The position numbers and the translations under genes are program-made. From assembly GCA_022827625.1 (NCBI GenBank), contig JAJEIE010000008.1, forward strand, positions 186,001 to 250,000: a stretch of 64,000 nucleotides of DNA, given 5' to 3'. The notes under the pieces were generated by a model that searched no databases, was not told where the DNA came from, and saw only the letters and a program-made list of their open reading frames with translations. This document shows positions 21,255-30,168 of this stretch, piece after piece. Position 1 is the stretch's first letter. Every line of letters begins with the position of its first letter. This DNA comes from Candidatus Poribacteria bacterium. Its GTDB lineage: Bacteria; Poribacteria; WGA-4E; WGA-3G.

Positions 21255-22046
21255 CTATCGCGCCTCTAATGCCCTGATGCCGGGCCAATCGCGCCACATA
21301 TCCTCGTTAGGCGATTCCTCCTGCGTCTCCGCCAATTCGGTCTTTCGGAAGTCATAGAGCACAGCCTGCCGAATCTGTTTTGAATAGTTGTGTCCGGCAG
21401 CGTGCCCGATCCGATGATGCCAGAAGACAACATCACCGGCATTCCCATAACACTCAACGCCAGGCGTTCTGCTGATACGCTCTCGGTCGATGTCGTATTG
21501 CCGGGTCGGTTCATTTTTGTATTGCGAGTGGTAGTCGTAATAGAAAATCCGATGGCTCCCTGGCCAGACTGTGAATCCTCCACCTTCTGGCGGCACATCG
21601 TCAATATAGCCGACTGCGCCGAGATGGAACGGATGTGCGTCAACGTGGCACCCGATTGACTTCTTCGGGACATCCCCATACGGAAGCGTACAATAAATAC
21701 CGCGCACACGCTCAGGCTCCACCAGATTCCCTTCCCCCAAAAACTGCTCTGCCATACGCCAGACGTTCGGATCTGTAGCGAGGAGTTTGACCATCCAATC
21801 TTCACCACCGGGTTCACGAAAATTCCACCGAAATCCACGACGATTATTGCTCTTATCAAGGTTTTCTTCTTCCGGTGTGAAGGGACCGACCCACGTCTCA
21901 GGATCCTCACGTTTGCGTCCTGCCGGCGCACCGTCCCATAACCTTGCCCGTGCCCGCTCCATCAATGCTGGGTCAAGGACGTTTCGTTTTATCAAATAGC
22001 CTTGATTCTTGAAAAATTCTATGTCTTCGCGTGTAAGTTCAACCAT
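21255..22046 (-). CDS. Phytanoyl-CoA dioxygenase (PhyH) family protein
   Basis: 263 residues. Double-stranded beta-helix oxygenase with HxD iron ligands His134 and Asp136 (IGCHVDAHP), distal His at 215 (GDVVFWHHRIGHAAGHN) and 2-oxoglutarate-binding Arg in KQIRQAVLYD. Such enzymes hydroxylate substrates using Fe(II), O2 and 2-oxoglutarate; the family is strongly expanded in Poribacteria and substrates are mostly unknown. AAGGA lies 9 nt before the ATG. Also typical is the N-terminal REDIEFFKNQGYLIKRNVL. Divergent from the DUF5916 gene. Confidence 0.92.
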   Translation of the reverse strand: MVELTREDIEFFKNQGYLIKRNVLDPALMERARARLWDGAPAGRKREDPETWVGPFTPEEENLDKSNNRRGFRWNFREPGGEDWMVKLLATDPNVWRMAEQFLGEGNLVEPERVRGIYCTLPYGDVPKKSIGCHVDAHPFHLGAVGYIDDVPPEGGGFTVWPGSHRIFYYDYHSQYKNEPTRQYDIDRERISRTPGVECYGNAGDVVFWHHRIGHAAGHNYSKQIRQAVLYDFRKTELAETQEESPNEDMWRDWPGIRALEAR

Positions 22047-22253: not shown

Positions 22254-22282
22254 TTGACAATACCATACGTTTCGACTATAAT
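22254..22282 (+). promoter_or_regulatory. Perfect consensus sigma-70 promoter, leaderless geometry
   Basis: TTGACA (22254-22259), exactly 17 bp, TATAAT (22277-22282): both boxes match consensus fully. The ATG of the DUF5916 gene is at 22290, 8 nt after the -10 box, so the expected start of transcription coincides with the start codon. No Shine-Dalgarno is present between promoter and ATG. Confidence 0.8.
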
Positions 22283-22289
22283 TGAGCGC

Positions 22290-24521
22290 ATGCTAAGATT
22301 TGCAATCGTGCTCCTGCTCACTATTTCATATCCGATGCTGCTCTTCGCACATCCAGAGGGTGCGGGAGCGCATACCCTTGAAACCTACCGAATTGAAGGT
22401 AAACCGCCGCAAATTGACGGGCTACTCGACGACCCTGTTTGGCAGCAGGCACAACCCCGTGATGGCTTTATCCAACTTGAACCCACGCGCGGTGCCCCGG
22501 CAACCGATGACACAGAATTCCGTATTGCTTACGATGTCCATAATATCTACGTCGCATTCCGGTGTTACGACGCTGAACCCGATAAAATTGTGAACCGGAT
22601 GACGCGGCGCGGCGATGTATACGCCTCAGATGTCATCTCCTTCTTCATTGACCCACATCACGATCATCGTACAGGCTATAAATTTGCCACAAACCCCGCT
22701 GGGGTTCAGAGTGATAATTACCGATACGAGGATACACAGCGTGACGCCAACTGGAAGGGAATTTGGTGGGTTGAATGCCAGATTGATGAATTAGGATGGA
22801 GTGCCGAATTCAAAATTCCATTCTCTAACTTCCGATTCACCAACAAACCGACACAAGTCTGGGGTTTTGATGTGGAACGGGTCAACCGTAGAAAGGGTGA
22901 GGTGACGGTATGGAAACAGTTGACACAGGCGGGTGTGGTTACACGGATGTCCGATTTAGGGCATATCTTGGACATCCAAGGCATTGAGACGGGGAAAAAT
23001 TTCGAGATTGCACCATACCTCTTAGGGGGCGGAACGGGTGCTGCCGACACGGACCTGACACGTCAACTCGGCACTGGACTGGATGTTCAATACAGTCTCA
23101 CGAGTGCGTTGAAGGCGAACGTCACATTTAACCCTGATTTCGCACAAGTTGAAGCAGATCAATTGGAGATTAATCTGACCCGTTTCCCGACTCGGTTCCC
23201 CGAAAAACGCCCATTTTTCGTTGAAGGCAATAGTTTTTTTGAAACGCCTTATGATCTTATGTTCAGTCGTCGTATCGGGAGTCGCGGGAATATCCTTTGG
23301 GGTAGTAAACTTACAGGGAAAGTCGGGAACTACTCTATTGGTGTCTTAGGCAATCAAACGGGGGAATTCGGTTTGTCTGAAACCGCTGCGTCTGAAAAAG
23401 AGGCGGCATGGTTTTCTGCGATCCGCGTTAAGCGCGACATCCTTAAGCGCTCAAATGTTGGGATTCTGTTTGTCAATAAGGAGCAGGGCGGCAACGACAG
23501 ATGGCATAGCCGCGTCGGTGGTATTGATATGAACCTTGCCCTTGGCAAAACTTATCATCTCACAGGACAGTATGCCGGTAGCTTTCATCCAGGAGATGAC
23601 AGGAGTAACTCGGCGTGGACGATTGATTTCGCGCAACGCAACTACCTGTGGAGCAGCAATATTGGAGTGGAACGGGTCGCACCGCACTTTGAGATTAACG
23701 AGACCGGGTATCTCCGTAAAGAACGAAATCGGGGATGGCAGCGGGTTCAGATGCGAACTTCCTATTCTCCGCCGTGGGGAACACGCCAGTTTTTCTCAGG
23801 CATCAGTGGACGGCTCTCACAAAGCCTTTATACACCAGAATATTTCGCTGAATGGAAAGAACGGAACCCTGAATTGTCGCTTTCGCCTCAATTTGACGAA
23901 GATTTGCTCAGATGGCATGTGAGTGCCGATGTTGGGATGGATTTCAGAGAGACGCTCGTAGAGGATCTGATGTTCTACTATTATCGAAGTCGAGAAGTTG
24001 AACTAACGGAGGTATTTGTAGCGGATGGATACGGATTTGAGATTGACACCAACGCCACATATCCGATTGCTATCGGTATCGGTATAGATTTTTCTGACTA
24101 CTTTAACTTCGGACGGCAACAAGCCGGTAAACAGCGAAGCCTTACCTTTGAATCGACGCTGCGTCCACAGAGTAATTTTTCGATAGAATTAGACAGCGGT
24201 TATGCGCAAAGCCTTGATTTAACAGGGGCAATTGACGGTAGATTTTTCGTCAGCTCCATGCGTGCGACTTACTTATTCACGCGAGAATCGTTTCTTCGGA
24301 TGTTCGCCCAAGCGAATCGGGAACGTGAACTTTCTGAGGAAATCCATCAAAGCTACCTGTTGAGTTTTCTCTTCGGATGGGAATATAGCCCGAAGAGCCA
24401 TCTGTTTGTTGCTTACAATGAGGCTTGGGGGGATGTCCCTACTCGGACAGGCGTAGGTCGCGAATTACAGTTGGAAAATCGGGTTGTCGTGGTTAAAGTG
24501 ACATATTTGTATAACTTATAG
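22290..24521 (+). CDS. CBM9-like / DUF5916 outer-membrane protein
   Basis: 743 residues from the ATG at 22290; a TTG at 22227 would place 21 polar residues before the signal peptide and would read through the promoter. Signal peptide about 1-22 (LRFAIVLLLTISYPMLLFA). Residues about 35-230 form a carbohydrate-binding family 9-like sandwich (EGKPPQIDGLLDDPVWQQA, ISFFIDPHHD, GWSAEFKIPFSNFRF). The rest has alternating beta-strand character expected for a membrane barrel (ETPYDLMFSRRIG, GVLGNQTGEFG). DUF5916 proteins are common in Bacteroidota and Poribacteria; a role in polysaccharide or surface binding is inferred. Divergent from PhyH; likely single transcript. Confidence 0.85.
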   Translation: MLRFAIVLLLTISYPMLLFAHPEGAGAHTLETYRIEGKPPQIDGLLDDPVWQQAQPRDGFIQLEPTRGAPATDDTEFRIAYDVHNIYVAFRCYDAEPDKIVNRMTRRGDVYASDVISFFIDPHHDHRTGYKFATNPAGVQSDNYRYEDTQRDANWKGIWWVECQIDELGWSAEFKIPFSNFRFTNKPTQVWGFDVERVNRRKGEVTVWKQLTQAGVVTRMSDLGHILDIQGIETGKNFEIAPYLLGGGTGAADTDLTRQLGTGLDVQYSLTSALKANVTFNPDFAQVEADQLEINLTRFPTRFPEKRPFFVEGNSFFETPYDLMFSRRIGSRGNILWGSKLTGKVGNYSIGVLGNQTGEFGLSETAASEKEAAWFSAIRVKRDILKRSNVGILFVNKEQGGNDRWHSRVGGIDMNLALGKTYHLTGQYAGSFHPGDDRSNSAWTIDFAQRNYLWSSNIGVERVAPHFEINETGYLRKERNRGWQRVQMRTSYSPPWGTRQFFSGISGRLSQSLYTPEYFAEWKERNPELSLSPQFDEDLLRWHVSADVGMDFRETLVEDLMFYYYRSREVELTEVFVADGYGFEIDTNATYPIAIGIGIDFSDYFNFGRQQAGKQRSLTFESTLRPQSNFSIELDSGYAQSLDLTGAIDGRFFVSSMRATYLFTRESFLRMFAQANRERELSEEIHQSYLLSFLFGWEYSPKSHLFVAYNEAWGDVPTRTGVGRELQLENRVVVVKVTYLYNL

Positions 24522-24572: not shown

Positions 24573-24601
24573 TTGTAAAAAGAATTGAGGTATGATATAA
24601 T
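24573..24601 (+). promoter_or_regulatory. Sigma-70-like promoter, leaderless geometry
   Basis: TTGTAA (24573-24578), 17-bp spacer, perfect TATAAT (24596-24601), then 6 nt to the ATG at 24608. The expected transcription start is the first base of the start codon. No ribosome-binding site is visible. Confidence 0.7.
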
Positions 24602-24607
24602 AAAAGC

Positions 24608-24976
24608 ATGAAAGATTTTTTACTTCTATTTTTCAACGTCTTGCTAACAGTGATCGGGCAAATCCTCTTCAAACACGGCATGAATACGATAGGTCGTATC
24701 AGTACGCTGCGGGATGCCCTTGGGAAATTGACGCAAGCGTTCTTGAACCCTTACATTCTCAGCGGGATTGCGATATACGGTTTTACAACGCTGGTCTGGC
24801 TCGTCATTCTGTCGCGTGTTAAACTGAGTATTGCGTATCCAATGTTAAGCTCTGGGTATGTGTTGTCAATTCTGTTTTCATGGATGGTGTTCAAAGAATC
24901 TGTTCCGAAGATTCGCATAATTGGTGCACTGATTATCTGTATCGGTGTTTATCTTGTTGCGCAAGGAGAGTCTTAA
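24608..24976 (+). CDS. SMR/EamA-like small membrane transporter
   Basis: 122 residues with four membrane helices (about 3-20, 50-70, 75-93, 99-117). Features LTVIGQILFKHGM, AYPMLSSGYVLSILFSWMVFKE and a final helix IIGALIICIGVYLVAQ match the small multidrug resistance/half-EamA group, including ArnE-like lipid flippases. Probably acts as a dimer in the inner membrane; substrate unknown. It starts an apparent two- or three-gene run with the TM2-like protein (4 bp downstream). Confidence 0.82.
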   Translation: MKDFLLLFFNVLLTVIGQILFKHGMNTIGRISTLRDALGKLTQAFLNPYILSGIAIYGFTTLVWLVILSRVKLSIAYPMLSSGYVLSILFSWMVFKESVPKIRIIGALIICIGVYLVAQGES

Positions 24977-28485: not shown

Positions 28486-28515
28486 TTGACATAGACATAT
28501 CCGATTCAGTATAAT
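28486..28515 (+). promoter_or_regulatory. Sigma-70-like promoter for transglutaminase gene
   Basis: TTGACA (28486-28491), 18-bp spacer, TATAAT (28510-28515), both boxes perfect. Expected start near 28522 gives a leader of about 69 nt with AGGGGATGAAG-type site before the ATG at 28591. Confidence 0.75.
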
Positions 28516-28590: not shown

Positions 28591-30168
28591 ATGGATCGTT
28601 TGTGTTTAGTGCTAATAATTGCTTGTGTGTGGGCATTCGCTGGTATCGTCTTCGCACAGGACAACGGAGCGAATGGTGAACCTGTTCAAGGCAAGATTGT
28701 TGATACCACTACAGCAGAAACCGCAATCGAAAGCATTGAATCAGAAAAAAATAGACCACAAATCACACTTGAAAACATGCCACAAGACTTCCGGGAACAA
28801 TGGTACAGCCTCACGCTAATGAACACCAAGATTGGTTATATGCACGCCTCCCTCGAAGAAACCGAGTACCAAGGTGAACCCGTAATCCGAAACAAATTTA
28901 ATATGGTCATGAACTTTAAGGCACTCGGGACGGATGTCACACAAGAAATCACCCGTGCTGAGTATACCGGTTTTGACCTGGTCCCGCGCTATTTCCTTTC
29001 AACTTCTAATGAGTCAGGCTCAAAACAGGTGGAAGGACGGATTGTCGATGGAATCGCCTACATAAAAACTACCCTCAACGGTGAAACGACTGAATCAAAA
29101 GTCCCTGTACCACCCGATACAATTTCCGAAATCCCTGGTTTACAGTCCCTCCTCAACCAGAAAGGGCTCAAAATAGGCGATAAATACAACCTTCATATAT
29201 TTAGTTTCGATCTCTTGAAACCTGTAAAGGCAGAACTTGAAATTACAGGGCAAGAGACCTTAGTCCATCAGTCAGAGGAAAAGCAGGTCTTCGTTTTGCA
29301 TCAAACAATGGATATAATGGGAGGCATTACAGCGAAGGCTTGGATTGATACCGATGGAGTGACCTATCGAACAGAAGTACCCTTGATGGGCTTTTCTCTC
29401 GTAACTACGAAAACAGATAGAGAAACGGCACTTGGTGGCATGGAAGAGATTGATGTCGTCTTAAAAATCCGCATTCTTCCCTCTGGAAAACGCCCGACAC
29501 CAAAGGCAGAACACCTCGAAGCGGAAGTGAAGCTTTTGACAGGAAACATCACCGAAGCCATTATGTCTAACGCACGACAGAAACTTGATGTCGAGACCGG
29601 TCAATCAGGTAGACTTTCAATCCAAGTTCCAACGATTGTTGCAGAAGATTGTTCCGACCTACCCTTCCATGACGCAGAAGGCGAATTCCTGCGTTCCAGT
29701 GCTTATATTCAAACACACCATTCTGACATCCAAGCGAAGGCTAAGGAGATTTTGAATGGCGAGACGAATTCATGGCGTGCGGCGAAAAAATTGTGTCAAT
29801 GGGTTTATGAATCCATCACCGACAAAAGAGCAACCGGCGGCTTTGGTTCGTCACTAACCGTATTAGAGGCGCGCGCTGGAGACTGCACGGAACATACTAT
29901 GCTTTTTATTGCATTGGCACGGGCTGCGGGAATCCCTTCACGCATCTGTTCGGGCATTGTATTTTCAGGCGACGCCTTCTATTATCACTTCTGGCCCGAA
30001 GTTTATGTCGGCAGATGGGTACAAATGGATCCAACATTCGGCCAGATGGTAGCGGATGCGAATCACATTCAACTTGGCGGAAGCACGCTCGAATCGGATA
30101 ATCTAATGGAATTTGCTGAAGGCGTTTTCCAAACAATCAACCGACTTGAGATTGTGATTACTGAGTGA
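28591..30168 (+). CDS. Secreted transglutaminase-like protein
   Basis: 525 residues with signal peptide (about 1-23, ending FAQ). The C-terminal transglutaminase core carries the full triad: Cys432 in GDCTEHTML, His466 in FYYHFWPEV and Asp480 in QMDPTFGQ. The preceding 350 residues are beta-rich (LTLMNTKIGYMHASLEET; MDIMGGITAKAWIDTDGVTYRTEVPLMG), the usual partner region in this family. Such enzymes act as peptidases or crosslinkers in the envelope. In other bacteria they neighbour MoxR/DUF58/BatA genes; here only the BatA-like gene follows (39 bp downstream). Confidence 0.88.
   Translation: MDRLCLVLIIACVWAFAGIVFAQDNGANGEPVQGKIVDTTTAETAIESIESEKNRPQITLENMPQDFREQWYSLTLMNTKIGYMHASLEETEYQGEPVIRNKFNMVMNFKALGTDVTQEITRAEYTGFDLVPRYFLSTSNESGSKQVEGRIVDGIAYIKTTLNGETTESKVPVPPDTISEIPGLQSLLNQKGLKIGDKYNLHIFSFDLLKPVKAELEITGQETLVHQSEEKQVFVLHQTMDIMGGITAKAWIDTDGVTYRTEVPLMGFSLVTTKTDRETALGGMEEIDVVLKIRILPSGKRPTPKAEHLEAEVKLLTGNITEAIMSNARQKLDVETGQSGRLSIQVPTIVAEDCSDLPFHDAEGEFLRSSAYIQTHHSDIQAKAKEILNGETNSWRAAKKLCQWVYESITDKRATGGFGSSLTVLEARAGDCTEHTMLFIALARAAGIPSRICSGIVFSGDAFYYHFWPEVYVGRWVQMDPTFGQMVADANHIQLGGSTLESDNLMEFAEGVFQTINRLEIVITE

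Follow-up and report, generated by a model that had tools for sequence, protein, structure and literature searches.

The window, by which we mean the whole 64-kb stretch of DNA analysed here, carries on its forward strand a gene for a 743-aa CBM9_1 and DUF5916 protein with a signal-peptide-like N-terminus (22290..24521), preceded at close range by a consensus promoter. The -35 box, TTGACA (22254..22259), and the -10 box, TATAAT (22277..22282), match at six of six positions each and are separated by a spacer of 17 nt, which gives 12/12 bases of the sigma-70-type pattern TTGACA-N16-18-TATAAT and confirms both the position and the perfect TTGACA-17-TATAAT consensus reported by the first-pass annotation. 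That annotation had counted 8 nt between the -10 box and the start codon; the gap is 7 nt long (TGAGCGC, 22283..22289) and is followed by the ATG at 22290..22292. Judging from the distance to the -10 box and the missing Shine-Dalgarno (SD) sequence, the A of this ATG would also be the first transcribed base (+1), and base 22289, at the end of the gap, would be -1. The earlier statement that an SD sequence is lacking agrees with our own search, in which the 20 nt preceding the ATG contained none of the 4-mers GGAG, GAGG and AGGA. A -10 box 7 nt before the start codon, together with the lack of an SD sequence, is the layout of a leaderless (TA-led) gene. The divergent PhyH gene on the reverse strand (21255..22046) provides a contrast, being equipped with an ordinary AAGGA SD sequence. 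The signal-peptide-like N-terminus that opens at ATG 22290 is conserved in orthologues, which makes this ATG the credible start codon.

The window contains the exact pattern TTGACA-N17-TATAAT a single time, and 0/100 dinucleotide shuffles contain it. When spacers of 16-18 nt are admitted, the window holds 2 perfect promoters against 0.03 expected, and the whole genome 127 against 3 for the reversed pattern. Given these 127 sites, a perfect promoter is not in itself rare in this genome, but its position here is. The second perfect sigma-70 promoter of the window (28486-28515, spacer 18) stands about 75 nt before an ORF at 28591, which is an ordinary leader distance.

The next gene downstream, also on the forward strand, encodes a 122-aa EamA-like (DMT) protein (24608..24976) and is a second leaderless candidate; its Pfam EamA match (E 4.5e-06, 27.4 bits) falls just below the cut-off of 28.2. 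A weak -35 box, TTGTAA (24573..24578, 4/6), precedes an extended -10 box, TGATATAAT (24593..24601), which ends 6 nt before the ATG. Among orthologues, TGn followed by TATAAT, TACAAT or TAAAAT lies at a gap of 6-7 nt in 17/17 of the starts found, none of them with an SD sequence, in a tally that leaves aside 12/29 loci where the start was not found. Two adjacent genes thus each have a leaderless-type promoter of their own.

Conservation of the promoter and of the base before the ATG

The footprint of the DUF5916 promoter was drawn from 42 Poribacteria loci, namely 19 from the same genus and the first 23 of 55 loci in a wider listing of relatives, and 29 of the 42 are distinct; for each locus, the best-scoring promoter register was chosen. 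Both boxes are kept in 27/29 distinct upstream regions, with 12/12 consensus bases and a spacer of 17 nt (18 in L031), and the gap between the -10 box and the ATG is 6 nt in 6 of these 27 rows and 7 nt in the other 21. One further orthologue (L049), whose protein is 75% identical, keeps the layout with two changes, as TTGACC-17-TATCAT-7, and a single orthologue (L043) is without the promoter. Over 26 rows, the upstream region has a mean pairwise identity of 37%, compared with 58% for the spacer and 57% for third codon positions; these rows were chosen for a perfect spacer-17 pattern, and the 100% identity of the hexamers follows from that choice. Orthologues are related sequences and not independent samples, but the retention of the promoter in 27/29 of them while the flanks diverge argues that its placement is not due to chance.

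The start codon is ATG in all 29 rows, which is compatible with a 5'-terminal AUG as the site where translation begins. Five loci (L003, L004, L005, L008 and L046) have an extra ATG 6 nt further upstream, 1 nt past the -10 box. If transcription starts 7-8 nt past the -10 box, this extra ATG would be excluded from the transcript, and the RNA would begin at the second, conserved ATG.

Start sites at which a purine (+1) follows a pyrimidine (-1) are commonly preferred by bacterial RNA polymerase. Immediately 5' of the ATG, C or T is present in 29/29 DUF5916 rows and in 17/17 EamA-like rows, as well as in all genus rows of three other families described below (UppP 24/24, BioD 21/21, aldo-keto reductase (AKR) 15/15), against a genome baseline of 48% for the scanned ORFs. 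Since the rows of any one family are related, these counts should be read as evidence from five families and not as 106 independent cases. Most SD-type orthologues from outside the genus have a purine at this position (DUF5916 4/5, UppP 5/5, AKR 8/10), and the BioD orthologues outside the genus have T in 7/9. A pyrimidine at -1 is as expected if +1 is the A of the ATG.

Leaderless-type starts elsewhere in the genome and the genus

The genome comprises 5.02 Mb in 41 contigs, of which 1.96 Mb (39%) was scanned. With ORFs of at least 120 aa and the first ATG as start, a crude form of gene calling, 1435 of 1481 ORFs were kept after those with no ATG in their first 30% were dropped, and they divide into 720 with an SD 4-mer and 715 without. 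SD motifs peak 5-10 nt before the ATG (1.16 Mb). Upstream sequences were scored with a generic promoter model, whose base frequencies are approximate E. coli values rather than values fitted to this genome, and a score of at least 10 at a gap of 5-10 nt was reached by 16/715 non-SD ORFs as against 0/720 SD ORFs. The corresponding controls gave 0.4 for Markov sequences and 0.1 for internal ATGs, and other gap windows of equal width contained 3-4 ORFs with such scores. The leaderless class is therefore real but small, about 1% of the 1435 ORFs by this strict scan, and the majority of genes in this genome appear to have ordinary starts.

Less specific patterns do not single out this class. Enrichment of TANNNT before start codons genome-wide, which the first-pass annotation had proposed as a check, did not materialize: at gaps of 6-8 nt, 40 of the 715 non-SD ORFs carry the motif against 37.5 +/- 6.7 expected. 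Among perfect promoters with an ATG within 30 nt, gaps of 6-8 nt account for 5/60 listed rows, with no excess. An unsupervised motif fit to the non-SD ORFs converged on another motif, whose likelihood did not exceed that of the best Markov control, and was discarded.

Six more genes were taken from the high-scoring scan list and tested by orthologue search. Within the genus, a -10 box at a gap of 5-10 nt precedes UppP in 24/24 rows, AKR in 14/15 and BioD in 18/21, and the same tally for DUF5916 gives 17/17 of the starts found, with an SD sequence in 0/17; the 2/19 DUF5916 loci that it missed are both present in the footprint. An SD 4-mer occurs in 1/15 of the AKR genus rows. Outside the genus, such a -10 box was found before 0/29 of the starts found for DUF5916, UppP, BioD and AKR together, and an SD 4-mer is present in 5/5 DUF5916, 4/5 UppP, 10/10 AKR and 0/9 BioD starts. 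These outside counts omit the loci that were missed, 6/11 for DUF5916 (among them L020, where AGGAGG precedes an ATG), 1/6 for UppP and 1/11 for AKR. With -10 boxes inside the genus and mostly SD sequences outside it, the genus differs from its sister families in start mode at three genes at least.

The remaining genes from the list gave mixed results. The gene for a HEAT-repeat lipoprotein has a box resembling TATACT or TATAGT, recognized by eye, about 8-9 nt before the ATG in 11/12 of the starts found, 5/17 loci not being recognized by the start pattern. For a TPR gene, the layout is kept in 6/24 of the loci looked at, a subset. A cyclase-like gene was rejected as a conserved leaderless candidate because, despite its high score, the layout is not conserved in its orthologues.

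Two kinds of repeated sequence were also encountered. Two unrelated genes (C26:97951 and C31:125607), whose translations by eye look transporter-permease-like and oxidoreductase-like, are preceded by nearly the same sequence over about 40 nt, which contains TTGACA and a CATAAT just before the ATG and looks like a repeated promoter element. Near-identical perfect promoters (TTGACATCAGTTAG.AAAAA...GTATAAT) occur at several sites (e.g. C8:117082, C25:365862, C26:51766 and C26:139331), which suggests a repeat family that brings its own promoter.

Probable leaderless transcription and its known parallels

We infer from the promoter layout that a housekeeping sigma-70-type RNA polymerase would bind the perfect -35/-10 promoter and begin transcription 7-8 nt past the -10 box, with the A of the ATG as first base. 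A start at this base would yield an mRNA with neither a 5' leader nor an SD sequence, on which translation would begin at the 5'-terminal AUG, probably along a 70S or leaderless pathway. The DUF5916 gene would then belong to a small conserved leaderless class in a Poribacteria genus whose SD signal is clear genome-wide. We regard this reading as a whole, from the ATG-adjacent promoter to the small conserved class in an SD-using genus, as highly probable. The leaderless character that the first-pass annotation had proposed for this gene is well supported by the conservation of the promoter, of its distance of 6-7 nt from the ATG and of the pyrimidine at -1, and further by the recurrence of this layout in neighbouring as well as unlinked genes.

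How exactly the 5' end coincides with the ATG is the point on which an alternative has most to say. Bacterial start sites are often spread over 2-3 bases, and transcription might begin 1-3 nt before the ATG or just inside it, producing a tiny leader or spread ends with the same working. The gap varies from 6 to 7 nt in DUF5916 and reaches 10 nt in BioD and 9 nt in AKR, so that a leader of 1-3 nt is possible in the latter two; a start at A+1 is the best fit to the pyrimidine that all genus rows of the five families have at -1, and we give a near-leaderless start a modest chance. It is improbable that the promoter is real but secondary, with the main transcript starting further upstream. The roughly 240 nt of intergenic DNA could hold another promoter, but a transcript of this kind would have no SD sequence, and the region 5' of the -35 box has diverged to 37% mean identity while the hexamers are unchanged in 27/29 rows.

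The start codon could conversely lie further downstream, leaving the promoter with an ordinary leader, as an in-frame ATG 15 codons on in some orthologues would allow. That codon is absent in many orthologues and its use would remove the conserved hydrophobic N-terminus, so this arrangement seems very improbable. A chance consensus match adjoining an ATG might be entertained because perfect promoters are common (127 in the genome) and show no gap peak at that stringency; its conservation in 27/29 distinct orthologues and the recurrence of the layout in adjacent and unlinked genes make coincidence extremely improbable.

Beyond the leaderless reading of the DUF5916 gene, a broader proposal can be framed, namely that in this genus leaderless starts, combining a strong promoter with a fixed Y(-1)A(+1) initiator, were adopted by a defined group of genes (DUF5916, EamA-like, uppP, bioD, an aldo-keto reductase and others), and that these genes serve as a co-regulated class whose translation takes place under 70S-favouring conditions inside the sponge host; we consider it doubtful. 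The named records to which the genome is closely related are metagenome-assembled genomes (MAGs) of Candidatus Poribacteria, which are sponge-associated. Leaderless genes are a known kind, and in the open-licence literature we found no earlier description of members from Poribacteria. An uncultured, sponge-associated phylum would thus join those with conserved leaderless-type genes, their transcription start being predicted from sequence, and the gene families described here form a set on which the timing and manner of switches between SD and leaderless starts can be tested. They also illustrate that scans for TANNNT only can miss a small leaderless class, which promoter models and orthologue footprints reveal.

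A classical leaderless gene in SD-using bacteria is phage lambda cI. The DUF5916 gene resembles it in having a promoter placed at the start codon within an SD-dominated genome, and differs from it in that gene and lineage are unrelated. On a wider scale, Zheng et al. 2011 (PMC3160421) describe leaderless (TA-led) genes as widespread, not dominant, in many bacterial groups, with orthologues switching between SD-led and leaderless states at a rate tied to phylogenetic distance; the word 'Poribacteria' does not occur in the text of that paper. The genes reported here share with the TA-led genes of that study a -10-like box some 10-12 bp upstream of the start and the lack of an SD sequence, and differ from them in making up, in a strict scan, about 1% of the ORFs and in having a strong -35 box or an extended -10 box instead of a bare TANNNT. 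In Deinococcus-Thermus, according to Zhong et al. 2025 (PMC12340547), a TANNNT -10 motif precedes nearly one-third of D. radiodurans genes. The features in common with that system are a -10 box located about 6-7 bp upstream of the ORF, a leaderless mRNA (here predicted) and conservation across the genus; unlike it, the Poribacteria genome shows no enrichment of TANNNT alone, and for this reason is not Deinococcus-like. The likeness to Deinococcus and Actinobacteria drawn in the first-pass annotation accordingly holds in kind but not in extent, the class in the scanned part of this genome comprising 16/715 non-SD ORFs against a control of 0.4, or about 1% of the 1435 ORFs.
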